A stretch of DNA of 64,000 nucleotides from Shewanella livingstonensis (lineage in GTDB: Bacteria; Pseudomonadota; Gammaproteobacteria; Enterobacterales; Shewanellaceae): assembly GCF_003855395.1 (NCBI RefSeq), contig NZ_CP034015.1:2304001-2368000 (forward strand). Reading direction: 5' to 3'. Numbering within the stretch: the stretch's first letter is position 1; each line of letters opens with the position of its first letter. The notes under the pieces are model-generated. The model made no database searches. It was not told the origin of the DNA and worked only from the letters and a program-made list of their open reading frames with translations. This document shows positions 46,505-60,488 of this stretch, piece after piece. A program made the position numbers and the translations under genes.

Positions 46505-47902
46505 ATGAGCGCGGCAATAGTTTCAGCCAATACGGGGTCAATATCCAATGCTGCGCAAATAAAATCCCGCAGTTCATTATTTGCGACAGCTGTTCAAGCT
46601 AACACTCGATCTAGTGCTCAATCTAGTACTAAAGCTAGCACTGATGTGGCTGCGACCCAATCTATCGACTTTCAATCGTCTGGTGCGACTGATAACCGTT
46701 ATCTCAAATCTAGCTCAAGTTCATTTCAAACGACTGCTCCGTCAACCTCCGCATATACAGCACCATTAGATTTAACATCTAATTTAGCCAGCACCAATAC
46801 TCAGCAGAGCTTTGCATTTAGCCCTTCGGAGTCGAATCGTCAGCCTCAAGCCTTTGTGGGCTCGGATCCTAGCAGTTACAGTTTGAAGAGCGGTCCACTC
46901 AATGTTGCTGGGGTCGTTAATCGTTCTCAAACTCCATTACTGGCTACAGGCGCACTCGCTGAAACATCTACCAGTACTCATGCATCAACTATTACCAGCA
47001 ATGGTGATATAAGCAGAGAACAGCAGCCGGTGGCCAATATTTTTAATCAGCCATCAGCTAGCCCTGCTGCAGCGACAGATGATACTGCGCCGGTTTCAGA
47101 TGGACAGAAAGCAACGGCAGATCCGCAATTGTCAAACGGTCAAGATGATAAGGCAGCAGAGCAGGTTGAGCAGCAAGTTGCAAAAAAACAACAGCAAATT
47201 GCACAAGCTGAAACAAAACAGATTGATCAACTCGCGCAGCGAGATACTGAAGTTAAAACCCATGAGCAAGCTCATGCCGCAGTGGGTGGAAGTTTAGCCC
47301 AGAGCCCTAGTTATCAGTATGAAAAAGGCCCAGACGGACGACGCTATGCCGTAGAAGGTGAAGTCAGTATTGATGTGTCGACTGTTTCTGGTGACGCTCA
47401 AGCGACATTAACTAAAATGCAGAAGGTGTATGCCGCAGCAATGGCGCCAGTGCAACCTTCTATGGCCGATATTCGAGTGGCTGCGCAAGCATTACAGAAC
47501 ATGAATGAAGCAAATAAAGAGTTGATTCAACATCGTCAACAAAATGTGAGTTCTACGCAGAAAAGTCAACATACGTCACTAGCTGATAATATTGTTAACT
47601 CTATGGATAATGATCAACAATTTACTTCAACAATGGACTCTAACAATATCATCACACCAAATAGCCGTACTTTAACTGTGGAGGGGTTTAGTGGAGATGA
47701 AGCAAATATGAATTTATTATCGGCAGAGCGGGGCGCTAATACGGTTTCAAATGCTAATATCCTAAGTGACACTATTTCGAATATTACGGATTCAAAAAAT
47801 ACAACAGTGGCCGAGGGTAACTCAACCCGTCAAATAGAAACGCCTTTGTCTTCACCCGAACGTTATCAGCAGCAACATCAGGCTATTGAAATATACGTAT
47901 AA
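46505..47902 (+). CDS. SprA-related putative metalloprotease (CJM1_0395-like)
   Basis: A 465-aa protein. Residues 1-200 are low-complexity Ser/Thr/Gln/Ala-rich. Residues about 215-345 are the conserved domain of the SprA-related family: a Gln/Lys-rich coiled segment, then H253-E254-Q-A-H257 (HExxH), followed by SPSYQYEKGPDGRRYAVEGEV read in pieces, and a helical APVQPSMADIRVAAQALQNM. The rest is again low complexity. Zinc protease activity is predicted from HExxH but unproven. No signal peptide is visible. It forms a pair with the preceding small gene. Confidence 0.8.
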   Translation: MSAAIVSANTGSISNAAQIKSRSSLFATAVQANTRSSAQSSTKASTDVAATQSIDFQSSGATDNRYLKSSSSSFQTTAPSTSAYTAPLDLTSNLASTNTQQSFAFSPSESNRQPQAFVGSDPSSYSLKSGPLNVAGVVNRSQTPLLATGALAETSTSTHASTITSNGDISREQQPVANIFNQPSASPAAATDDTAPVSDGQKATADPQLSNGQDDKAAEQVEQQVAKKQQQIAQAETKQIDQLAQRDTEVKTHEQAHAAVGGSLAQSPSYQYEKGPDGRRYAVEGEVSIDVSTVSGDAQATLTKMQKVYAAAMAPVQPSMADIRVAAQALQNMNEANKELIQHRQQNVSSTQKSQHTSLADNIVNSMDNDQQFTSTMDSNNIITPNSRTLTVEGFSGDEANMNLLSAERGANTVSNANILSDTISNITDSKNTTVAEGNSTRQIETPLSSPERYQQQHQAIEIYV

Positions 47903-48200: not shown

Positions 48201-49100
48201 TTAACCATTAAATGGTAAATTATGATGTTTTAAAATTAAGCTTTCTAATAATTTACAGGCAGGACCTTGCTGATCGCGATTCGGTATCACTAAATTGAGC
48301 ATTATTTTACGTTGGTAACTACCACGTAAATGTAAGCGAATGAGTTGTTTGTTGGCAATTTCTTGTTCGACTAAAAAGCTGGGTATCCAACAAAAGCCAA
48401 TATTTCGGGCCAAAATGATTTTTGCTTCATGAAAGTTAGACACAGTCCAACGTTGTTCTGCTTTTAACCACCCAATATCGTTGGTAGCATTAACGCCAGT
48501 ATCTTTAATCACAATTTGTAAGTGTTGGGCTAATTGCTTGTCATCTTCGATTAACGAAAGTTGTGCTAGAGGATGAGCAGGATGGCAGACTAATTCAAAA
48601 TTTAATTCACCTAATGGCTCAGAGATATGGCCTTTTGGAGGGGTAGCGCAGATAGCAATATCAACTTGATTATTTTTTATTAATTCGTGAGTGCCTGATA
48701 TAACTGAATCAATTATGGTCACACGAGTGCCGCGACTTTCAGGTAAAAATGCTGTTAATGACTCAACAAGGTCGTCCATCGGATAAACAATCTCTCTGGC
48801 AATAGTTAGATTAGGCTCCCAACCTTGACCTAGATTACAGGCTAATTGCTCAAGCTCTTCAACCGATTGTGTTAAGTGGCGAGAGCGCCGCAAAAGCACT
48901 TCTCCTTGTTCTGTTAAATAGGCTTTTCGACCTTTTACTTCAAGTAAGTTTATTCCTAATTGATGTTGCAACTTAGCCACAGCATGATTAAGTGATGACT
49001 GGCTTTTATTGAGTTTTTCTGCTGCTTGAGCATAACCGCCAAAATCAACGACGGCTTGGACAATTCGCCATTGTTCTAAGGTTGATTTAGCTCGGCTCAT
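48201..49100 (-). CDS. LysR-type regulator
   Basis: A 299-aa LysR regulator. The winged HTH is at about 8-65 (YAQAAEKLNKSQSSLNHAVAKLQ in pieces) and the effector domain at about 92-290 (ending LLESLILKHHNL). It is transcribed on the minus strand downstream of the terminator at 49163-49187, so it is a separate unit from the amidoligase cluster. Its targets are unknown; neither flank provides a divergent operon. Confidence 0.9.
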   Translation of the reverse strand: MSRAKSTLEQWRIVQAVVDFGGYAQAAEKLNKSQSSLNHAVAKLQHQLGINLLEVKGRKAYLTEQGEVLLRRSRHLTQSVEELEQLACNLGQGWEPNLTIAREIVYPMDDLVESLTAFLPESRGTRVTIIDSVISGTHELIKNNQVDIAICATPPKGHISEPLGELNFELVCHPAHPLAQLSLIEDDKQLAQHLQIVIKDTGVNATNDIGWLKAEQRWTVSNFHEAKIILARNIGFCWIPSFLVEQEIANKQLIRLHLRGSYQRKIMLNLVIPNRDQQGPACKLLESLILKHHNLPFNG

Positions 49101-49162: not shown

Positions 49163-49187
49163 AAGGCAAATGCAGCGCATTTGCCTT
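49163..49187 (-). terminator. Terminator of the cmoA-to-DUF3541 minus-strand unit
   Basis: On the minus strand AAGGCAAATGC pairs with GCATTTGCCTT around a 3-nt loop and continues into a T6 run. It lies 26 bp after the DUF3541 stop. No other terminator was found between it and cmoA, consistent with one long transcript. Confidence 0.9.
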
Positions 49188-49213: not shown

Positions 49214-50338
49214 TTATTGAGCATTAACCATAGAAGCTTTTGGCTTGACTAATTTTGGCAAGTTCTTCTTGGTGCTAGGAATATTATTTAAATATGGACC
49301 TTTATGTAATGTTTCAGGCCAATCTAATAACATCATTGCTAACACGTTTCTGTGTTCACCGCTGGATAAATCAGCTTTACCATGAGGTGATGGGATCATC
49401 ATTATTTTAGGGTCATAAGCCGCAATCACGTGCTGTTTAACTTTATCAACAACTGGGTTATCACCGTTACCCGTAATTAAGAAACTAATACCCACTTCAG
49501 TAATAATATCTTCGGTGGTATCGGTTAAAATACGGTCAATGTTGTTCTCGAAATAATCTAAAATCCATTGATATTCTTTAGGTTCAACAGGGTGTTGATA
49601 ATACTCGCTCGCTGAAAAAATAAAGTGAGTCATGCCATAAATTTTATTTTTGTATTGGCTTTTTTTGAGCAGATCATCTTTACTGTTTGGATATGTTTCA
49701 ATAAAGGCTTTTTTATAAGCTTGGTAATAGTCGCCAACACCAATTTGTTTTGCCCAGTACACATAGTTAATTAATTGTGCAGCCCAAGCTTCAATCATTT
49801 TCTTATCGGTTAAAGCGGGTGCTAAGTTCACCTTTTTTAGGGTTTTTATCATTAAATCATGACAAGGACCAGTAAAGCCAAATTCATCGACACGACTGGC
49901 ATAACGTAATAATACATCGCTATACAACATAAAATTAGGGTAAGGAGCCACGGCTGCCTTACGAGCTATACCACGAGGACCATTACCTAATTTATCTACT
50001 TCTATTTGTGACTCGCTTTTAATAAAGCCTGGTTTATCCAGATTACAAGAATAGTAGGCTTGACGTTCAGCAATAGTGAGCAAATCAATTAATGAACCAT
50101 TGGCATATTTGGTTTCACCCGTCATGCGGTATTGACGGATGGAATAATGGCCTTGGACTCTCGGCGGTAATGAATAAAGCTGGGTTTCTAAATTAGCTTT
50201 GATACCTTGATAAACTTGTTCTGCCGTTAATTGGTGAGCTGTTTTGTCGACGGGCTCTTTTGCCAACGCCACACTACTAAACAACGTCGCTGACAATAGT
50301 AAGTACGAGAGTGTTTTACTGTTGCGTAGTTCCAGCAT
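49214..50338 (-). CDS. DUF3541 exported protein of the amidoligase cluster
   Basis: A 374-aa exported protein with a signal peptide over about residues 1-26 (VALA-KEPVD). The remainder is mainly helical, with several conserved-looking patches (LYSLPPRVQGHYSIRQYRMTG, SGEHRNVLAMMLLDWPETLHKG, both split here) and one Cys pair (C97 and C157). I assign it to DUF3541, known from Vibrio and Shewanella but without a function. The ATG at 50338 has AGGAG 8-12 nt upstream, while an in-frame start 19 codons earlier lies inside the M3-like gene. It overlaps that gene by 23 nt, indicating coupled translation. Confidence 0.78.
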   Translation of the reverse strand: MLELRNSKTLSYLLLSATLFSSVALAKEPVDKTAHQLTAEQVYQGIKANLETQLYSLPPRVQGHYSIRQYRMTGETKYANGSLIDLLTIAERQAYYSCNLDKPGFIKSESQIEVDKLGNGPRGIARKAAVAPYPNFMLYSDVLLRYASRVDEFGFTGPCHDLMIKTLKKVNLAPALTDKKMIEAWAAQLINYVYWAKQIGVGDYYQAYKKAFIETYPNSKDDLLKKSQYKNKIYGMTHFIFSASEYYQHPVEPKEYQWILDYFENNIDRILTDTTEDIITEVGISFLITGNGDNPVVDKVKQHVIAAYDPKIMMIPSPHGKADLSSGEHRNVLAMMLLDWPETLHKGPYLNNIPSTKKNLPKLVKPKASMVNAQ

Positions 50339-52094
50339 GTTTAAATCTCCTGATGAGTGAATGTGGGTCAATCGGCGGGCCAATGAGCTGCTCAAGTTGA
50401 TCGTTTAAGGTTAAATATGTTTCGTTTACAACCAGTAAAGTGAATATTTCTTTTGCGGATTTTCTGGCCGGTGTCTCAGAAATAATCAGTTGAGTTAACG
50501 CGTTATGCCATAAAGGAAGATAATGATTAATGCCTTCATTAGCAATAGCTTGATAACTATATATTGCATCAGTTGCGCTTGGCCATTGTTGACCAAAGCT
50601 TTGCTCAAAAGCCACTGATAATGATTGGTTATGACTTAACCAATCATCTTGTTTCTCTCCTTCTATATCACCTTGATACTGATAAAATGCCAGTGAGACT
50701 TTTGCTCTAAACACCCCGAGTTGTTGTTGGTATTGCTCGGCTAATTGATGGCGCCCAGACAATTCAGGTAAATTAAGCTGCTGCTTAATATAGTGGGCTA
50801 ACCACTGTGTTGCAATAGCATGAGTATCGATGTTTTGTCCTCTGTTGGTGAGAAAATAAAACTGCCCACCTTGCGCTAAGGATACTATTGCCTGGCTCAA
50901 TGCGATAATTAATTTTTGTTGTTGTATCGAGTGGGTTAAGTGTTGTGGAAAACTAAGCGCATATTGGCCAAATTGATGGCCAATAACGGTTTGTTTTATC
51001 AATTGCCCATCTACGTTTCGACTATATTGCTGTTTACTGTGCGGATAGGTAAAGATTTCACCCAGTAATCGTTGTTGATGCCAAACCCGAATCATTCGTG
51101 TGTTACTCAGGCGATTATGCTCAATATCATCAGCGGAGGCATTCGATTTATCCATGTTTATTAGCTCAAACTTAAGACCTATAGACTCCAGGCTATCGAA
51201 TATTTGTTGTAAAAAAACAGTGGAGCTCATCGTTTCCATGCTAGATGATTTACTGGCTCGGCTCAGTGCACGGGCTATGTTCCATGGCGCAATGTCGAGG
51301 TCAACGGTTTGACTGGCTAAAAATCGTGCTAGCTGCGTTGGGTCTAAACCATGCAATGACAACTGAGCTTGGGCTGTATTGCTATATTGTTGTTGTATTG
51401 CGCGTTGTTGCTGCAGTTGATGGATCAATGCAAGCGCAGGGGTTTGTTGGGCTTTAGCGCGAATTTGGTAGGCGAGCCACGCTTGTTTTCTACAGTATTC
51501 ATTAGGTTGTTTAATTAAATACTTAGCAATATTAATATCGATATTAGTCTTGCCATCAGATTCAATATTAGCCTTTTGGGTTAATACACAATCTTGCTGA
51601 TTAAATTGCATAGTAAATTGTTGACGTGACAATGCTTGATGAATACTTGCTTGGGCACTGTGCAGTTGTGATTTTTCGATTAACGGCCATTGGGTTCGTA
51701 TTATCGTGATTAAACGCTGCCCTAACTGATCATAAGGTGATTCAAGGTACGGTAGTTTATCAATGAGGTATTGGGTTTGTGCTGCAGTTGTTAATGCATA
51801 CAGTTCATCGGCAAGGTGTAGCTGACACCATAATAAACCTTGTTTATTGAGGCTATCGTTGGCGAAAGGGCGATAATATTGAATTCTGTCATTGATATTA
51901 TTTAACGCAATAGTGCGCTTTTCAAATTCTACAGCTTGTTGTTCAACAGACTGAAAAGAAGCAAGCTTATCTGGTTCTAACTCAGGTTGATATTGTAAGC
52001 ACTGCTCGATGAACAGTGCTAAAGGATTAGCCACAGCATTTGCTGTGGCTAAAATATTAAAAAATAGGGTTGCTACAAAAATGCTTTTTAGCAT
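50316..52094 (-). CDS. Exported M3-peptidase-like protein lacking HExxH
   Basis: A 592-aa exported protein with a signal peptide (about 1-21). Several segments recall M3 oligopeptidases: CRKQAWLAYQIRAKAQ like the REKxYxAYxxRA helix, and a C-terminal NDQLEQLIGPPIDPHSLIRRFKHAG like the FxGRxPxxxxLLxxxG end. The zinc site is missing: no HExxH occurs anywhere, and the place where HEFGHALH would fall reads ALSQAIVSL. It may be a pseudopeptidase acting by binding. The M3 relationship rests on my own reading. ATG 52094 is preferred over TTG 52112. It overlaps the ATP-grasp gene by 38 nt. Confidence 0.62.
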   Translation of the reverse strand: MLKSIFVATLFFNILATANAVANPLALFIEQCLQYQPELEPDKLASFQSVEQQAVEFEKRTIALNNINDRIQYYRPFANDSLNKQGLLWCQLHLADELYALTTAAQTQYLIDKLPYLESPYDQLGQRLITIIRTQWPLIEKSQLHSAQASIHQALSRQQFTMQFNQQDCVLTQKANIESDGKTNIDINIAKYLIKQPNEYCRKQAWLAYQIRAKAQQTPALALIHQLQQQRAIQQQYSNTAQAQLSLHGLDPTQLARFLASQTVDLDIAPWNIARALSRASKSSSMETMSSTVFLQQIFDSLESIGLKFELINMDKSNASADDIEHNRLSNTRMIRVWHQQRLLGEIFTYPHSKQQYSRNVDGQLIKQTVIGHQFGQYALSFPQHLTHSIQQQKLIIALSQAIVSLAQGGQFYFLTNRGQNIDTHAIATQWLAHYIKQQLNLPELSGRHQLAEQYQQQLGVFRAKVSLAFYQYQGDIEGEKQDDWLSHNQSLSVAFEQSFGQQWPSATDAIYSYQAIANEGINHYLPLWHNALTQLIISETPARKSAKEIFTLLVVNETYLTLNDQLEQLIGPPIDPHSLIRRFKHAGTTQQ

Positions 52095-53013
52095 AAGCCA
52101 CACGTTCCTCAACAGACATTGTTGAGCTTTTCATCGCTTCAACATGCTTAAGTCGAGGTAAAATCCCTCTACCATTGGCAATTTGAATTGTTAAACCTGG
52201 ACGGGCATTCAATTCAAGTAACAATGGACCTTTGTTTTTATCTAACACCATGTCAGTACCCAAATACCCTAATTCACACATTTCATAGGCACTCGATGCC
52301 GTGTGGAGTAGGGTTTCCCAATGAGGAACAACTATGTTCGACAGTGGGAAGTGGGTATCAGGATGTTTATCAACAGGTAAATCAAATTGCACTGCGTGCA
52401 AACTGTTTCCGGTAGCGATATCTAAACCTACACCGACAGCACCTTGATGTAAGTTTGCTTTGCCATCTGATGCGGCGGTTGATAAACGTAACATTCCCAT
52501 TACAGGAAAGCCTTTAAAGACAATTAGGCGGATGTCAGGGACACCTTCATAACTTAAGCCTTCAAAGACAGGGTCAAATTCAATTAACCCTTCTACAATT
52601 GCGACATCTGGCTTACCACCAAGTGAGAATAAACCACTTAAAATGTTAGATACATGACGATAAATTTCGCTATGAGTCACTTCATGGCCATTGGGCTTGT
52701 AATAACAGCCATTGCTCACTCTGGTGATCACCATAATCCCTTTACCGCCAGACCCTTTTGCTGGCTTGATTACAAAACCAGTTCGGTCAAGTACCATAGT
52801 TGGTATTTCTTGGATTTTATGTTGTTGATGAACAACTCCAATTAAATCGGGAACCGCAATACCATTAGCAAGCGCAAGTTGCTTAGTAATTAGCTTGTCA
52901 TCAACGCGTTTATAAAACTTACGCTGATTATAACGACCAATATAGCTAATGTTGCGCCTGTTCATGTTGAGTACACCGCTACGGCTTAATTCCCAGGGCC
53001 AGGCGTACTTCAT
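52057..53013 (-). CDS. Alpha-L-glutamate ligase-like ATP-grasp protein
   Basis: A 318-aa cytoplasmic ATP-grasp ligase of the RimK-related group (TIGR02291-like). The ATP-binding lysine K83 is in FVIKPAKGSGGKG (glycine loop 87-92), and the metal-binding pair E267/N269 lies in LLLELNARPG. In this family, an amino acid (probably glutamate) is ligated to a carboxylate of an unidentified acceptor. Its acceptor is unknown; the envelope neighbours suggest an exported peptide or lipid-linked product. The gene overlaps both the upstream membrane gene (1 nt) and the downstream M3-like gene (38 nt). Confidence 0.85.
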   Translation of the reverse strand: MKYAWPWELSRSGVLNMNRRNISYIGRYNQRKFYKRVDDKLITKQLALANGIAVPDLIGVVHQQHKIQEIPTMVLDRTGFVIKPAKGSGGKGIMVITRVSNGCYYKPNGHEVTHSEIYRHVSNILSGLFSLGGKPDVAIVEGLIEFDPVFEGLSYEGVPDIRLIVFKGFPVMGMLRLSTAASDGKANLHQGAVGVGLDIATGNSLHAVQFDLPVDKHPDTHFPLSNIVVPHWETLLHTASSAYEMCELGYLGTDMVLDKNKGPLLLELNARPGLTIQIANGRGILPRLKHVEAMKSSTMSVEERVAYAKKHFCSNPIF

Positions 53014-54521
53014 TATTGCTCTCCAACTAATGGTTTAAAGCGTTTTAGCTCAGTTAAACGGTAACCAGTGTACTGTCCCATCACTAATACCAACGCTAAG
53101 ATCACTAAATGAACACCCAAGAAGTTGAATACCCAATGTTGAACTAATTGGTTGTCCATGGCTAAGTATGCCAATGTGGCTACAAATAAGCTGCCACCAC
53201 CTGATACAAAGACTTTCTTAGGGCCTTCCTCTTCCCAGAGAATCGACATACGTTCAATGGTCCATGCCAGAATGATCATCGGGAAGAAGGTAATCGTTAA
53301 GCCTTCACTTAAGCCCAGTTTGAATGAGATTAGGGTAAATAAGCCGATAATAAAAATAACCACAATGATTACCGCCGATATTCGGGATATGAGCAGTAAG
53401 TTGAGTGTCGACAGATAGGAACGGATCATTAAACCAAAAGCAACAATCAGTAAGAATCCAATTAGGCCAGTTAAGAGTGTAGTTTGAATAAATGCCAGAG
53501 CAATCAATACCGGCATAAATGTACCCGATGTTTTGATGCCGACAATCACGCGTAAAAACACCACAACTAATACCCCGATAGGGATTAATAGAATGCCTTT
53601 AAATGTACTTTGTTCTTCAAGCGGTAATTGATACAGAGAGAAATCCCACGCATCGTCATTCATCATCATATCGATAGATGTCGCCAACGCTGAACGAGTA
53701 TCTTGCAGCATTGAAAAATTCACTAATGAATTAGTTCCGCCCATAACATCAAGCACTGAATTACCAGTATATTCCCATAACACTAGGGTATTATCACGGC
53801 CTTTCTTGTTGTTTGGAACGTCGAAAAGCTCCCATTCACCATCATTATAAACTTGAACGTATGACGTGAGCTGCTGACGGCGTCGCTGATCTTCAAGTTG
53901 CAGACCGTTAACAATACGTGCCGGTACACCTTTTGAGTGCAGCATGTGCACAAACAAATTGGTTGGAGTATTAGCAGATAATAGTAAAGCCATATTTTGG
54001 CTTTGATCATTATCATTAATCAAATTCATTAGTTGCTGAGCAAAAGACAAATTAGTTGCACTGCGTACCCATACTTCTTCTGTTATTTGCTCTGCAGCTG
54101 ATTTTTCAGTTGCAGGCCATAAGTAAGCTTCAGGTGCGACAGGCACTTCATCTGTTTCAATATTGAGTTTTCCAGTCGGTACCAAAGTCACTCGATAATA
54201 CAGGGCTTGTGAGCCTGAAGCTTCACGAATGGACCACACCGCACGACGATTCTTGGCTTCAGCTGAAATAGTCAAACCATAGCCTGGTGACGATGCATTT
54301 TCGACTAAAATGTCAAACGCAGGATCGTTAGGTAATGAAAAATTGACTTCAGCAGGCTGGTTAGTGCCATTAAAACTGATTTTGGCATCAACGGCCCAAC
54401 TTTGTACCTGTTCACCAGGTAAAAACGGCACATTGTGTTCTATACCACGATATATGCTGGTGCTGATCCCGATGATAAATAGCAACGCAACAAATATGTA
54501 AAACGGTTTACGAGAATGCAT
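53013..54521 (-). CDS. Inactive transglutaminase fused to a seven-helix membrane domain
   Basis: A 502-aa membrane protein. One N-terminal helix (about 6-24) is followed by a periplasmic region with a beta domain and a transglutaminase-like domain (about 150-260). The Cys normally before the GxPAR helix is absent (NTPTNLFVHMLHSKGVPAR) and the His position reads TSYVQVY, so catalysis is unlikely. Six to seven helices follow at about 308-490. This is the architecture I know from amidoligase clusters beside ATP-grasp and retropepsin-like genes. It is 8 bp from the upstream lipoprotein gene and its AGGA lies within that gene's stop region. Confidence 0.85.
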   Translation of the reverse strand: MHSRKPFYIFVALLFIIGISTSIYRGIEHNVPFLPGEQVQSWAVDAKISFNGTNQPAEVNFSLPNDPAFDILVENASSPGYGLTISAEAKNRRAVWSIREASGSQALYYRVTLVPTGKLNIETDEVPVAPEAYLWPATEKSAAEQITEEVWVRSATNLSFAQQLMNLINDNDQSQNMALLLSANTPTNLFVHMLHSKGVPARIVNGLQLEDQRRRQQLTSYVQVYNDGEWELFDVPNNKKGRDNTLVLWEYTGNSVLDVMGGTNSLVNFSMLQDTRSALATSIDMMMNDDAWDFSLYQLPLEEQSTFKGILLIPIGVLVVVFLRVIVGIKTSGTFMPVLIALAFIQTTLLTGLIGFLLIVAFGLMIRSYLSTLNLLLISRISAVIIVVIFIIGLFTLISFKLGLSEGLTITFFPMIILAWTIERMSILWEEEGPKKVFVSGGGSLFVATLAYLAMDNQLVQHWVFNFLGVHLVILALVLVMGQYTGYRLTELKRFKPLVGEQ

Positions 54522-54529
54522 TACGGATC

Positions 54530-55300
54530 CTACTTAATTAACGTGGTAATTTGGTTTTTGGCTTTACCATGAATGTAGATTTGGCCTACATCAACAATGG
54601 CAATATCTTTCATAAACTTGCGACCTAGTAACAGAGGATAATCTAGGTGGCTTCGATCCGTAAGGTTTAAATCTGTTTCGGCGGCATATTTACCTATTTT
54701 TAAATGAGCATGGATAACGGGACGACGATCATCACCCGTATCAGCATCTTGTTTAATACGTACAAAGCGTTCTACTTTAGATTCAAACGTATTGACGGGT
54801 TGATCTATACCATTAGTTAGCACGTCATAGCGAACCCACTGTTCACCTTCACGTTCAAATAATACGATATTACGTGCATCTAATGATGATGATTCTGCAC
54901 CCGTATCGATACGAGTGGCAAACTTAGCTTTTACTTCATCAACAAATACACTTTCGACTTCACCTAATAGAAACTTTTCGCCGATAATGTTTTCTGGACA
55001 TTGCTGCAGAATTTCTGCTGCTTTTTGTATTGGCGGTTGAACAATAATTGTTTTCGGTTTTTGGTTCATCGCGGTACTAACTTGGGTCTTCAACTTTCTG
55101 ATTTCGTCAGACAGCGCCGTCATCGTGTCTGCATGTTGGCTATTTTGTGAATTTATCACATCAATAATAGCGGTTTGAGACACTTGCAAACTGCTATTCA
55201 AATCAGCATTGGTTAGCGGAGGTGTTATTGGTTTTTGAGTATTTGTACAACCCGACATAAGGGCCGCTGCAACGGATAGAGCAATTACCTGCTTTAACAT
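54530..55300 (-). CDS. Retropepsin-like lipoprotein (so-called ATP-dependent zinc protease, RimK/LysX-associated)
   Basis: A 256-aa lipoprotein with lipobox LMSGC (Cys18), so the protein is anchored in the envelope. A coiled-coil-prone segment (about 38-80) and the conserved CPENIIGEKFLLGEVE block precede the protease domain. D132-T-G-A at the start of the domain is the aspartyl-protease signature of single-domain retropepsins, although the family was once named a zinc protease. A hydrophobic Asp-dyad partner would come from dimerisation. It is the first gene of the envelope cluster and lies 25 bp after cmoB. Confidence 0.83.
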   Translation of the reverse strand: MLKQVIALSVAAALMSGCTNTQKPITPPLTNADLNSSLQVSQTAIIDVINSQNSQHADTMTALSDEIRKLKTQVSTAMNQKPKTIIVQPPIQKAAEILQQCPENIIGEKFLLGEVESVFVDEVKAKFATRIDTGAESSSLDARNIVLFEREGEQWVRYDVLTNGIDQPVNTFESKVERFVRIKQDADTGDDRRPVIHAHLKIGKYAAETDLNLTDRSHLDYPLLLGRKFMKDIAIVDVGQIYIHGKAKNQITTLIK

Positions 55301-55325: not shown

Positions 55326-56318
55326 TTATACTAAATCGAGATTCGGTTGGTTCTTTGTTGCGATAATGATGGCCCTCTTGGGCGCAGGATAACCTTCTAT
55401 AGTTAAGCTCACATCATTAGGATCAAGATAGTCGACTAGAGATTCATTTTTCATCCAGTGGGTGCTGCGTTGTTCTGCTAGCGAGGTGATATCAATGTCA
55501 ACACAACGAATATCGGTAAACTCGCATTTCTTTAACCATAGCATTAAGGCTGCAACAGAAGGTAAAAACCAAACGTTGTTCATTTTGCCATATCTATCTT
55601 CGGGTACAAGCACCGCATTTTCATCGCCATCAATAACCAGAGTTTCAAGAACCAGTTCACCACCGACTCTTAATTGGTCCCGTAATTGTAGTAGATGATC
55701 TATAGGTGAGCGGCGGTGATAGAGTACGCCCATAGAAAACACCGTATCAAATGCATCCAAAGCAGGTAACTCTTCAATACCTAAGGGCAGTAAATGTACC
55801 GGGTGCTGATTACCTGCAACCCGTTTAATCGCTTCAAACTGACATAAGAATAATGGTGACGGGTCAATCCCGACCACTCGTGCTGCACCATCACCCAACA
55901 TCCGCCACATGTGGTAGCCACTGCCGCAACCGACATCTAACACAGTACGATTTTTTAAAGGTGAAATGTAATTTTTAACTCGATCCCATTTCCAATCACT
56001 GCGCCATTCGGTATCAATTTGAATACCATGAACACAAAATGGACCTTTACGCCACGGTTGAAAGACAGCCAATAGGTTGGTGAGTTTTTCAACTTGACCG
56101 GGGCTGAGTTGTTCTCCGGTTCCAATCGTTACACTGCTGCTAAAATCTACTTTGTCAGGTTGTGGATAATGTAATTTATTGAGCACTTTTTCCCATTTAG
56201 GCAAATTACCATGCTTATGATCTCGTTGCCATTTACCTAAAATAGCTGGTAATGTTTCTAACCAATGTTGTAAGTTAGAATCAGCAATATCTTTATAAAA
56301 AGAACTGAAATTGATCAT
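55326..56318 (-). CDS. cmoB: tRNA U34 carboxymethyltransferase
   Basis: Transfers the carboxymethyl group from carboxy-SAM (made by CmoA) to 5-hydroxyuridine 34 of tRNA, giving cmo5U. The 330 aa align by eye with E. coli CmoB along their length: SHWLETLP-like start, [19 protein letters not shown], the SAM motif [34 protein letters not shown] and EGYPAPKRA. It overlaps cmoA by 4 nt. Confidence 0.97.
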
Positions 56319-57046
56319 TTAATCGCTACCATTGAAGCAAAGTTGAAACACTGAAACCAGACAGAGAAATGACTGAAGCCGTTTTCGGTTAAGCGTTTTT
56401 GGTGCACATTTAAGCTGTCTGGACGCATAACGTTTTCTAATGCACTGCGTTTTTGACTTATTTCGAGCTCACTATACCCATTTGCACGCTTAAAATCTAA
56501 ATGCTGTTCATCTAATAACTGTTGAATTTGATTATCTTCAAAAAATAACTTTTCTGAAATGACTAAAATCCCACCAGGTAACATACCGTCATATATGCGT
56601 TTAATTAGCGCATCTCTGTCATGAATAGGCAAAAATTGTAGGGTAAAGTTTAGCACTACCATCGACGCATTTTGAATGTCGATTTCTCTTATATCGGCAC
56701 ACAGTAAGTTAACCTTTATGTCGCTGACATAAGCCGCCAGATTTTCATTACAACGCTCAATCATAGACTGGCTGTTATCTACGGCATAAATTTGACACTC
56801 ACGTCCTTCAATTTGGCGACGAATACTTAACGTTGCTGAGCCTAACGAGCTGCCTAGATCGTATATATTGCTTCTGGGTGTGACAAATCGGTTAGCAAAA
56901 TCACCAATGGTATTGATAATTTGTGCGTAACCAGGAACCGAGCGGCGGATCATGTCATTAAATACACCCGCGACACGTTGATCAAATTGAAAATCAGTAA
57001 TTTGGCCTGTTGCATTAGCGTATATCGTATCTTGTTGAGGGTTCAT
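56315..57046 (-). CDS. cmoA: Carboxy-SAM synthase
   Basis: Converts SAM and prephenate to carboxy-SAM, the cofactor of CmoB. The 243 aa include [19 protein letters not shown] at the N-terminus, [14 protein letters not shown] as the SAM motif, [12 protein letters not shown], and NFTLQFLP. It is the first gene of the minus-strand unit that runs to 49.2 kb. Confidence 0.96.
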
Positions 57047-57662
57047 GAGTTGTTATGTAAAAAAATTATGTTTGTATTTTAGCTAATGATAGTGAACTGC
57101 AGCAAGTATCCTATTGTGTTTTTGTGAGTTTTTTTTCAAATAGTTGGATATGTTGTAAACAGGACCTGTTTTGAATGCTGATATTATATACAATCCGTTT
57201 AAATTATTAATGTGGCTTCGTAAAATTTGCAGGAAACAAGGTTAAATAATGATATTATTTAGCCTTGTTACAAAATAGTAACAAAAAGTGTCTGCTATGC
57301 TATTTTATTCTTTATTACGAGCGCTAATGGTATTTATCGTTGGGAATATGCAGCTAAATGCATTAAAAATGACAATGCAGCGGTTCATTAAATAGCTTAA
57401 ACCAGCTTGGGGTAATAAATGGTCATTAATCAATTTTTTGGTCTTGCTCGCTTCGTGGTATTGATCTGCAATAGACTTGTTATAAGCGCAGCGATAAACA
57501 AGTTATAGCGTCTTGTTGGCTAAAATGGCAAGTTTGATATGAATATAAGTGAAATAATCTGATTTTTAGTTTATGTATCCATCTCTGTTAGTTCGAGTTG
57601 AGATTAAATAACCCGAGTTCAGATTAAATCAGTATAAAAAGTGAAAGTATTAGGGAAAAAAC
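57047..57662. promoter_or_regulatory. 616-bp divergent region with nested palindromes
   Basis: Separates cmoA (minus) from the diguanylate cyclase (plus). At 57235-57269 a 16-bp stem forms between AACAAGGTTAAATAAT and ATTATTTAGCCTTGTT (one G-U) around a GAT loop; it overlaps a second inverted repeat TTGTTAC/GTAACAA at 57265-57284. These may be an operator cluster or a hairpin RNA. A 32-codon frame at 57297-57395 has no ribosome-binding site and is not called. The last 300 bp show no gene. Confidence 0.5.
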
Positions 57663-60488
57663 TTGAAATTTATACCTTGGATATTGGCAATATTACTTAC
57701 GTGGATATCGTTACCTGCGTATGCAGTACATTCAGACAAAGCCGCAACACTAGATCAAAACTTACCATTGGTTATCGTGATGGGAGAAGATACTTATCCA
57801 TTTGAATATTTGGATGAAACGGGAACGCCTGCCGGTATCATGGTTGATTTATGGCGCGAATGGTCAATGATTACTAATACCAAAGTACAATTTGTGTCAC
57901 GGCATTGGCAGCAGTCACTTGATCAACTTGAACAGCGACAGGCAGATGTCCATATTGGTATGTCTAAAAATAATGCACGCCTGGAAAAGTTTGATTTTGC
58001 CGAGCCATTCACCTCGGTAAATACCTACCTATATGTTCACAAATCTCTTAACAGTAAGAAGCAAATTAGTGACTTAGTGCCTTATCAAATAGGTGTTGTA
58101 ACGGGCTCTTCCCATGAGGCGACGTTATCAGCGATAGAACCTAAGCTAAGCTTTAAACGATATCAAAATCGTGAACAATTACTGCAAGCGGCTGTTAATG
58201 GAGAGTTGTTTGTTTTTGCCGGCATTGAAGGCTATCAGCGTAACTTAGCACTAGAGCAAGATATTGCGGCAAACTTCTATAGTTCATCACGTATTTTGAT
58301 CAAAAAAATCAATTTATTACCTGCCGTCATCAAAGGCAATCAGGCTCTTATTACCAAAATTAATAATGGTTTTGAGTTAATTCCTGCCAAGATAATCCAG
58401 CAGATAGAGCGTCGTTGGTTAGGTTATCATCGACAAACCTCAGGTGTGATTATTGCTATGCAAAATGGAGTAGAGCCTTATGCTGACATCGGTGCTGATG
58501 GCTTACCACATGGGATGTTAGTTGACTTATGGACACTATGGTCTGAGAAAACCGGTATCAATATTGATTTTGTTCCCGGCGATATGAACAGCTCTATTGA
58601 TGATGTTAAGCGTGGCGTGGCAGATGTACATATTGGTTATCCTGAAAGCCAAGATATGCGAACAGGCTTAAAGCAAGCGTGGCATATTATTTCGGTAAAG
58701 AGTCGTTTTTTTAGTTCCAATTTAACAATTAATAAAATTGAAAATATTGCAATGCGAATTGGTGTCTTTCCAACAGCACCTTATATCAGCGATATAAAAA
58801 AAGCGTTTCCTAAGGCACAGCTGCGTTTTTATGATTCATTAGACAGTATGGTCAAAGCGGCTCGTAATGATGAAATTAGCGGGTTTGTTTCTTCTGCAGC
58901 AATGACATCACATTATTTACTGGCCAATAAATTATGGGCTGAGTTTCGTCAATATACCAATATTGAATTTTCTACGGATATGTATGCGTTAACCCGAATT
59001 GATGACCGAGGTTTAGCCGATCGGATTCAAGCGGGCTTTAATTTAATCTCTGTTGAAGAGCAAATCCACATCGAGCGCAAATGGTTAATTAATCCTGACG
59101 ATCGTTTTTTTGCCAATTCTGCCAATAAAATAAAACTAACAACTCAACAGAAACAGTATGTTAGTAGCCTAGGTGCAATTAAGATGGGTTACCTTAAAAA
59201 TTGGGCCCCGATGGAGTTTCAGGGTAAAAATGGTGAGTTTTTAGGGGTTAACGCCGACATTAAAAACTTACTGGTTAAGCAACTCAATTTAACCATTATC
59301 CCCGTGGCTTACGATGACTTTGGTAATATGATGAGTGACCTGGTTAAAGGAGAAATTCATTTAGTTGCTAGTATGGCTAAAACCGCTGAACGCGAAAATA
59401 CATTAGCGTTTTCGTTAGCATATTGGCCGTCACCTTGGGCGATAATCACGTCGTTAACTCAACCGCCTATTTTTAATATCTCACAAGTTGCCGGTAAACG
59501 ACTGGCTGTTGTAGAGGGCTATCATATTGTTGACCAACTGCGTCAACAATATCCAGCGATAAATTTAGTGATTGTTGCAGATACCAAGCAGGGGATGGAA
59601 TCGGTACTAAATGGCACTGCAGATATGTTTGTTGAGCAGGTCGCTACTTTGGCGACGACCTTAAAAGGTGGCCAGTATCCAAGTTTAAAAATGTCGTTAT
59701 TAGCTGAACTTACCGAGCAGCATAGCCATATTGGTTTATTTCCTGGAGTTAAAAATTTAGTTCCTTTAATGGATAGGGTGATTGCAACCATTGATGAAAC
59801 AGAACAACAAAACATGTATCAAAAATGGGTATCGTTAGATCTGAATAGCGACACATTACGTTATCAACGCTGGCTGAAACTATTGGTTATTAGTTTGCTA
59901 GTTATCACTCTTATAGCCATAGTGATATTGATGTCCAATCGGCGTTTAAATGTCGAAATTCAAAAGAGACTTAAAGCAGAAGAAAACCTTAAGTTTATGG
60001 CCAATCATGACAATGTTACTGCACTACCAAATCGTAGCTTACTTGATGATAGATTAGCGCAAGCAATATTAATTCATCAGCGAGACAAATTAAAATTTGC
60101 ACTGTTATTTATTGATTTAGATGGTTTTAAAGCGATAAATGATCGGCATGGCCATCATGTGGGAGATAAGTTACTACAACGTATAGGCGTGCTATTAACC
60201 AAACACGTTAGAGAGTCCGACACAGTTGCCCGATTTGGAGGCGATGAGTTTGTGGTACTGCTAAATCACATAGAAGGCAAGGAAAGTGCCCGTCAAGTAG
60301 CAGACAACATGTTATTGGCCTTTAAAAAACCATTATTAATCGATGATGTCAGCGTTACTATTTCGGCCAGTATCGGCATCGCTGTTTTTCCAGATGATGC
60401 CGACAGTGCTGCTTTATTATTGAAAAAATCAGATCAGTTAATGTATCAAGCTAAAAAAGTGGGTGGCCATCAACATAAAATGAGTTAG
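57663..60488 (+). CDS. Diguanylate cyclase with three periplasmic solute-binding-type sensor domains
   Basis: A 941-aa membrane protein that should make c-di-GMP. A signal peptide (about 1-22) leads to three tandem SBP_bac_3-like domains, about residues 35-255, 262-475 and 492-720. Each opens with a DxYPFEY / GVEPYADI / NWAPMEF-type substrate segment and ends in an MYQKW/RKWL-type helix. One TM helix lies at about 738-760. The GGDEF domain has the intact G859-G-D-E-F863 active site and an R850-E-S-D853 inhibitory site, so product inhibition is expected. The start is TTG with an AGGGA-type site upstream. The ligands are probably amino acids or similar small molecules, but none can be assigned. 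Confidence 0.92.
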   Translation: MKFIPWILAILLTWISLPAYAVHSDKAATLDQNLPLVIVMGEDTYPFEYLDETGTPAGIMVDLWREWSMITNTKVQFVSRHWQQSLDQLEQRQADVHIGMSKNNARLEKFDFAEPFTSVNTYLYVHKSLNSKKQISDLVPYQIGVVTGSSHEATLSAIEPKLSFKRYQNREQLLQAAVNGELFVFAGIEGYQRNLALEQDIAANFYSSSRILIKKINLLPAVIKGNQALITKINNGFELIPAKIIQQIERRWLGYHRQTSGVIIAMQNGVEPYADIGADGLPHGMLVDLWTLWSEKTGINIDFVPGDMNSSIDDVKRGVADVHIGYPESQDMRTGLKQAWHIISVKSRFFSSNLTINKIENIAMRIGVFPTAPYISDIKKAFPKAQLRFYDSLDSMVKAARNDEISGFVSSAAMTSHYLLANKLWAEFRQYTNIEFSTDMYALTRIDDRGLADRIQAGFNLISVEEQIHIERKWLINPDDRFFANSANKIKLTTQQKQYVSSLGAIKMGYLKNWAPMEFQGKNGEFLGVNADIKNLLVKQLNLTIIPVAYDDFGNMMSDLVKGEIHLVASMAKTAERENTLAFSLAYWPSPWAIITSLTQPPIFNISQVAGKRLAVVEGYHIVDQLRQQYPAINLVIVADTKQGMESVLNGTADMFVEQVATLATTLKGGQYPSLKMSLLAELTEQHSHIGLFPGVKNLVPLMDRVIATIDETEQQNMYQKWVSLDLNSDTLRYQRWLKLLVISLLVITLIAIVILMSNRRLNVEIQKRLKAEENLKFMANHDNVTALPNRSLLDDRLAQAILIHQRDKLKFALLFIDLDGFKAINDRHGHHVGDKLLQRIGVLLTKHVRESDTVARFGGDEFVVLLNHIEGKESARQVADNMLLAFKKPLLIDDVSVTISASIGIAVFPDDADSAALLLKKSDQLMYQAKKVGGHQHKMS

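Follow-up and report, generated by a model that had tools for sequence, protein, structure and literature searches.

The Rlo system has been described for Pseudomonas aeruginosa, in which it governs hypo-osmotic survival, cell shape, biofilm and antibiotic tolerance (PMC12239564, available part). In this organism, the loss of the three RloA-type peptidases is harmful at low osmolarity, and loss of rloB or rloC rescues. RloA, whose channel is positively charged, cleaves 8E and 10E in vitro, whereas peptides of 6E and below are left uncut (PMC12239564). In Shewanella vesiculosa HM13, disruption of the inactive-transglutaminase gene hm2192 leads to more vesicles and to a disturbed vesicle size, according to the accessible sections of PMC12096838. 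Here, an rlo locus from Shewanella livingstonensis is described, which lies in a stretch of 64,000 nucleotides (the window, in the numbering of which positions are given) and in which rloABC are followed by genes for an M3-like protein (M3L) and a DUF3541 protein. There is about an even chance that this locus descends from an extended Rlo operon, the M3 peptidase of which died and was re-purposed in Shewanella while the DUF3541 protein stayed an Rlo partner. The five genes are the following:

54530..55300, minus strand: rloA, retropepsin-like aspartic peptidase with a lipobox-like MSGC and DTGAES (PF05618; motifs; PDB 9g59/9g58)
53013..54521, minus strand: rloB, inactive-transglutaminase domain plus seven transmembrane helices, no cysteine (PF14400, PF14402)
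52057..53013, minus strand: rloC, RimK-like ATP-grasp ligase (TIGR02291; PF14397)
50316..52094, minus strand: M3L, pseudo-M3 oligopeptidase of 592 amino acids with a signal-like N-terminus (profile-profile match; catalytic columns)
49214..50338, minus strand: DUF3541 protein of 374 amino acids with a signal-like N-terminus, predicted alpha/alpha-toroid-like (PF12060; predicted model)

Judged from its sequence, the fourth protein is a dead M3 homologue, because its place is taken by an M3 whose zinc site is intact in Gallaecimonas and in Thalassotalea-type genomes. An initial annotation of the locus had called this protein M3-like and devoid of HExxH, and both points were borne out. The window protein contains no HxxxH of any kind, and HExxH is absent from all 53 M3L homologues listed by a search that scored the 8000 candidates sharing most words with the query. 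The M3 relationship is invisible from the window protein alone, for which neither Pfam nor NCBIfam gives a match at E ≤ 1 (PF01432 included), and appears via its relatives. Precomputed PF01432 matches are present on 19 of the 53 listed homologues, and two of five diverged homologues on which the model was run match it, at 6.8e-7 (above the cut-off) and 4.7e-6 (just under it). The gene order rloABC-M3(HExxH)-DUF3541-DUF3541 is found in three Gallaecimonas genomes (G049, G074, G110) and in five Thalassotalea-type genomes of family f6 (G166, G453, G480, G527, G546), so that an M3 with HExxH occupies the slot between rloC and DUF3541 in all eight. These operons rule out the earlier proposal that the last two genes are lineage-specific. 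Where inspected, the active operon M3s have a signal-like N-terminus; three of them match PF01432 at 1.7e-44, 2.7e-43 and 1.2e-39 with the zinc site kept, and an active-only M3 profile matches solved neurolysin at an E-value of 4e-40. In hhalign, a 36-sequence alignment of M3L homologues matches four active M3s with 99.3% probability (E 1.1e-20) over 490 columns.

The catalytic columns separate the two groups. Both His residues, the Glu, the third-ligand Glu, H503 and Y507 are present in 7/7 active M3s. Among 55 pseudo-M3s (the 53 homologues and two from a second genus of the window's family), the first His, H503 and Y507 are never found, and the HExxH Glu, the second His and the third-ligand Glu persist in three, four and one, respectively. 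No zinc ligand is kept in 50 of these sequences and one is kept in five, in agreement with the earlier claim that the M3-like protein has no zinc site. In the second genus, two genomes carry a shorter dead version (G400, G417) and one has none (G064); the dead M3 was observed only in the window's own family. No literature on pseudo-M3s was recognised in a limited search.

Despite its loss of catalytic residues, M3L shows purifying selection in the sequence pairs that were compared. The ratio of nonsynonymous to synonymous substitutions (dN/dS) is 0.11-0.23 in eight pairs and 0.10-0.15 in a second set of six pairs, four of them between rlo-less genomes; the pairs are non-independent, several dS values are near saturation, and one saturated pair per set has no value. 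For the closest rlo-less and rlo-bearing pairs of the second set the ratio is 0.15 vs 0.14. In the Shewanella pairs of the first set, the corresponding ratios of two neighbouring genes are 0.01-0.04 (rloC) and 0.03-0.09 (DUF3541). Among 56 Shewanella genomes (36 plus 20 more), the M3L frame is unbroken in 55 and broken in G035. The idea that M3L is a pseudogene is rejected on dN/dS together with the unbroken frames. A gene without function, either decaying or an accidental resident of the syntenic slot between cmoB and lysR, would fit the single broken frame and a dN several-fold above that of rloB and rloC. This explanation is very improbable, since nearly all frames are intact, dN/dS stays at 0.10-0.23, new conserved residues such as IANEG have arisen at the former transition-state segment, and the gene persists through rlo changes in either direction on the tree described below.

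In Shewanella, M3L and DUF3541 differ in their distribution. All 56 genomes carry M3L, 47 carry RloB and 44 have DUF3541 beside the operon; M3L adjoins rloC in 47. The nine genomes without RloB (G002, G005, G006, G029, G271, G281, G364, G382, G391) are also without DUF3541 and without rloA and rloC at the locus, where these two were sought, and they keep M3L between cmoB and lysR. A quick tree built from cmoA, cmoB and lysR at 62 loci shows four or more changes of state in rlo. In 4/4 independent contrasts DUF3541 follows in the same direction, with M3L present on either side of each change. Three genomes with rloABC and DUF3541 (G015, G024, G408; loci L119, L124, L237) are nested in a clade with five other sampled members that lack both. 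In the M3L tree, their copies group with that of the rlo-less neighbour G382, as expected of a resident gene. Recurrent loss could account for this pattern, as could regain through recombination at the same position.

The initial annotation had placed all five genes in one pathway. This may hold for DUF3541, which tracks RloB, but a single strict pathway for all five is rejected as regards the M3-like gene, since 9/9 RloB-less Shewanella genomes still carry it. A pseudo-M3 that is still an Rlo component, binding or sensing a glutamate peptide but not cleaving it, would agree with the place of M3L beside rloC in most Shewanella genomes, with the overlapping frames in the window and with purifying selection. 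It is nevertheless quite unlikely, given that the gene is kept at a similar dN/dS where RloB is absent and that the pseudo-M3s have mostly lost the basic residues of their active relatives.

These residues were identified by comparing 10 active operon M3s with 49 other M3s (48 distinct, one counted twice), which consist of 40 that passed a motif filter from 79 scanned loci and nine paralogues from Gallaecimonas and family f6. R351, R353 and K421 are basic in 10/10 operon M3s and in 0/49 of the others, and H352 and K384 are basic in 10/10 operon M3s and in 2-6% of the others. The net charge of the operon M3s ranges from +10 to +25, compared with a median of -5 for the other M3s. The basic residues suggest an acidic substrate such as oligoglutamate, and this basic character parallels the positive channel reported for RloA in the available part of PMC12239564. 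It may reasonably be inferred that the active operon M3 clears oligoglutamate. In the pseudo-M3s, positions R351, R353, K384 and K421 are basic in 8/55, 13/55, 5/55 and 5/55, respectively, and the median net charge is -8; R457 is still basic in 35/55, and R201, which is common to most other M3s, in 55/55. Because the operon-type residues are mostly lost, a Shewanella M3L that still senses oligoglutamate is not favoured, which weakens the earlier idea that the M3-like protein senses a glutamate peptide.

M3 enzymes are broad peptidases. The operon M3s might accordingly be general oligopeptidases that act on ordinary periplasmic peptides and not on Rlo products, with the basic residues serving otherwise. 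This appears rather unlikely, as both RloB-less Gallaecimonas genomes have only paralogue-level M3 matches (≤110 bits, vs ≥473 bits for operon M3s) and the basic residues hardly occur in the 49 other M3s, nine of which are the Gallaecimonas and f6 paralogues. In a scan made with the active M3s, covering 80 of 141 loci encoding a relative, Rlo or DUF3541 genes were found only at the Thalassotalea record L242.

The association of DUF3541 with RloB extends beyond Shewanella. Among 394 genomes drawn evenly from the order, with both searches taken as the same draw, RloB is present in 63/63 DUF3541-bearing genomes and in 136/331 genomes without DUF3541 (Fisher's P 7.5e-22, which ignores relatedness). 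At the genus level, each of the seven genera with DUF3541 belongs to the 36, out of 114, in which RloB occurs (P = 2e-4). Within the Shewanella genomes of this sample, DUF3541 is found in 23/24 genomes with RloB and 0/6 without. Of five Gallaecimonas genomes, three have the operon M3 together with RloB and DUF3541; the remaining two, described above, have neither RloB nor DUF3541. In family f6, DUF3541 is present in 6/196 genomes, all six with RloB and five with the operon M3, and DUF3541 adjoins the rlo operon in three families. Co-occurrence does not prove interaction; on this ground, DUF3541 appears to be a functional partner of Rlo.

Alternatively, the association could mirror phylogeny, with both families residing in shared gammaproteobacterial clades and no functional tie between them. 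Many DUF3541 genomes do belong to RloB-rich clades, and the DUF3541 loci of families f21 (presumably Vibrio), f11 and f12 are unlinked to rlo; at 18 unlinked loci, DUF3541 is the sole common family, the next largest being found in five. This explanation is unlikely in the light of the within-group contrasts in Shewanella and Gallaecimonas (3/3 vs 0/2 in the latter), the presence of RloB in each of the rare f6 genomes with DUF3541, and operon adjacency in three families.

Several observations weigh against an extended Rlo operon in which DUF3541 is a partner and the M3 was re-purposed. There are the 136 RloB genomes without DUF3541, and in 16 loci of f21, f11 and f12 no rlo gene was found when about 7 kb to each side of DUF3541 was covered (less at contig ends). 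Two Shewanella genomes (G017, G121) keep rloABC and M3L without DUF3541, and in G018 the sole DUF3541 gene is distant and unlinked. The rloB gene is in pieces in 4/47 Shewanella loci (G001, G003, G035, G137) and M3L in 1/56. The sign test on four contrasts cannot fall below p = 0.125, and it relies on a quick tree with long branches flagged. The Thalassotalea-type genome G505 carries rloABC and both DUF3541 genes without an operon M3. In addition, the idea of an acidic substrate is based on sequence alone, and the predicted model of the DUF3541 protein has no match in Foldseek at E ≤ 0.001.

The DUF3541 protein matches PF12060 at an E-value of 1.3e-151 (504.5 bits, cut-off 28.2) over model positions 2-330 of 330 and contains ten near-invariant basic residues. 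Its predicted model, with a predicted local distance difference test score (pLDDT) of 92.1, was compared by VIA-align, and the fold is predicted to be alpha/alpha-toroid-like; LanC, terpene cyclase and GH88/GH105 were the families considered. A sequence search of the PDB gave 0 matches at E ≤ 10, and no mention of DUF3541 by name was found in the literature searched. In Gallaecimonas and Thalassotalea-type loci, the DUF3541 genes are tandem and separate, except for G166, where the two are fused into one frame of 701 amino acids with two DUF3541 domains (L208:11007-13112). The Shewanella genomes G018 and G152 (L097, L219) have a distant unlinked DUF3541 that is 37-40% identical to that of the window, as a sole or additional copy.

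Family searches and motifs identify the first three genes as rloA, rloB and rloC, so that the initial annotation of these genes as a known association holds; this agrees with the available part of PMC12239564. The features of an Rlo operon are found in order, namely a PF05618/DTG gene first, a protein with PF14400 and PF14402, and a TIGR02291 gene third. RloA matches PF05618 at 2.7e-35 and contains the motif IDTGAES and a lipobox-like MSGC. The NCBIfam models RloA3, RloA2 and RloA1 rank best, each below its own cut-off, and the RimB model reaches 54 bits (cut-off 200). RloA also matches the PDB entries 9g59 and 9g58 at 7.6e-19 and 3.1e-18; the Asp of the DTG motif is kept when aligned with these solved relatives, as are the arginines in RPVI and TDRS. 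RloB matches PF14400 and PF14402 and, at an E-value of 1.4e-97, the NCBIfam model NF052267 (type 'exception'), with 327.6 bits and thus under its cut-off of 900; in the PDB sequence search its best E-value is only 1.3. RloC reaches 463.4 bits with TIGR02291 (cut-off 314.2) and matches PF14397. The association of the three genes was reportedly described for the first time, in all probability, in a 2009 paper on amidoligases.

The initial annotation had described the transglutaminase domain as lacking its Cys and His. RloB indeed has zero cysteines and the residues TSYVQVY where the transglutaminase His would stand, a position placed by eye since PF01841 matches only in part. According to the Pfam family name and the available part of PMC12239564, the inactivity of RloB is a family trait and not a local loss. 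The two dead enzymes proposed earlier are therefore separate cases, inactivity being characteristic of the RloB family in the one and seen only in the window's family in the other. The Gallaecimonas genome G049 has a gene for a glutaminase (PF04960, E 1e-112; L098:3254-4168) between cmoB and rloA, encoded on the opposite strand; it could be connected with a glutamate-based pathway or unrelated to it.

By analogy with P. aeruginosa, the cytoplasmic ATP-grasp protein RloC and the inner-membrane protein RloB would build or display a glutamate-rich envelope modification, which the periplasmic, lipid-anchored retropepsin RloA would trim. In the ancestral operon, an exported M3 oligopeptidase may have cleared the short acidic peptides left by RloA. 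The DUF3541 protein would be a periplasmic alpha/alpha-toroid-like protein that works only with RloB, the association being observed, and may act on the chain or the acceptor. In the window's family, the M3 appears to have lost the zinc ligands, the transition-state residues and most basic residues. The pseudo-M3 would then have been kept by purifying selection and, in Shewanella, would have taken on a job independent of Rlo, while DUF3541 would have remained an Rlo partner that is absent where RloB is absent. A more ambitious version, which we regard as doubtful, is a complete envelope glutamylation cycle: RloC and RloB would add polyglutamate, RloA would cut it, the basic M3 would digest the stubs, and DUF3541 would bind or process the chain or acceptor, and in Shewanella the dead peptidase would have been recruited genus-wide to an Rlo-independent envelope role.

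Two further candidate Rlo components would provide new handles on the Rlo system. The basic residues of the apparently active M3 predict an acidic substrate, which is directly assayable. DUF3541 gains a first functional context, with RloB present in every surveyed genome that holds it, and the Shewanella branch offers a natural series of an enzyme that appears to lose catalysis and is still conserved genus-wide.

In the window, the five genes lie behind cmoAB and run up to a terminator-like site, as initially annotated, with all five open reading frames present from 55300 to 49214. The surrounding features are as follows:

56315..57046, minus strand: cmoA (TIGR00740 above cut-off)
55326..56318, minus strand: cmoB (NF011650 and TIGR00452 above cut-off)
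49163..49187, minus strand: strong intrinsic terminator-like site with an 11-bp stem and a T tract, at the end of the unit (sequence scan)
48201..49100, minus strand: gene for a LysR-type regulator just past the terminator-like site (PF00126/PF03466; synteny)
57183..57210, minus strand: sigma-70-like promoter, TTAATA-16-TATAAT, upstream of cmoA (consensus scan, 10/12)

The minus-strand run thus reads cmoA, cmoB, rloA, rloB, rloC, M3L and DUF3541 from 57046 to 49214, followed by lysR. The spacing is 25 nt between cmoB and rloA and 8 nt between rloA and rloB, and from rloB-rloC onward the frames overlap by 1, 38 and 23 nt. The overlaps given by the initial annotation were reproduced with ATG starts at 52094 (M3L) and 50338 (DUF3541), which were chosen by reading the sequence; the listed TTG starts at 52112 and 50395 are probably too early. 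Export of M3L and DUF3541 and secretion of RloA were judged by eye from the N-termini and the lipobox. In the 10.5 kb scanned on both strands, 14 terminator-like sites were seen vs 8.4 expected, and 25 promoter-like sites were seen in the region vs 33.4 expected in shuffles, so that the cmoA promoter is only suggestive. The site at 57183..57210 is a possible start of the unit, and one transcript from cmoA to DUF3541 is plausible from the gene arrangement. Synteny of the lysR neighbour is seen in Gallaecimonas and at many Shewanella loci; it is at most a candidate member of the unit. The best named matches of the M3-like and DUF3541 proteins are Shewanella proteins with 73% and 90% identity, respectively.

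Farther from the unit, the window encodes an SprA-related family protein (PF12118) with an HEQAH motif at 46505-47902, which is preceded by an open reading frame of 99 amino acids without a Pfam match. Divergent from cmoA, at 57663-60488, a protein of 941 amino acids is encoded, which has three solute-binding (SBP_bac_3) stretches and a GGDEF domain.

Compared with the described systems, the locus is closest to RloABC of P. aeruginosa, with which it shares the order rloA-rloB-rloC and the architectures of a secreted DTG retropepsin, an inactive-transglutaminase protein with seven transmembrane helices and a cytosolic ATP-grasp protein (PMC12239564, available part). It differs in the length of RloA (256 amino acids vs 159-178 for the models) and in the lipobox of the window protein, as well as in its position behind cmoAB and in the additional M3L and DUF3541 genes, which the accessible part of PMC12239564 does not mention. 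The RimB/RimK pair follows the same logic of a retropepsin and an ATP-grasp glutamate ligase; however, RimB is cytoplasmic according to the available part of PMC12239564, whereas the window RloA has a lipobox and stays under the RimB model cut-off. Within the same genus, hm2192 of S. vesiculosa HM13 has the annotated inactive-transglutaminase architecture of the window rloB (PMC12096838, in the sections available), with which it is equated by annotation alone. The active operon relatives of M3L share the PF01432 match and the zinc site with the M3 family (thimet oligopeptidase, neurolysin, oligopeptidase A) and differ from it by a signal-like N-terminus, a shorter length and the operon-type basic residues, while the window protein is without zinc ligands. 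PF12060, which the DUF3541 protein of the window matches over its full length, is named by Pfam as a family of unknown function.

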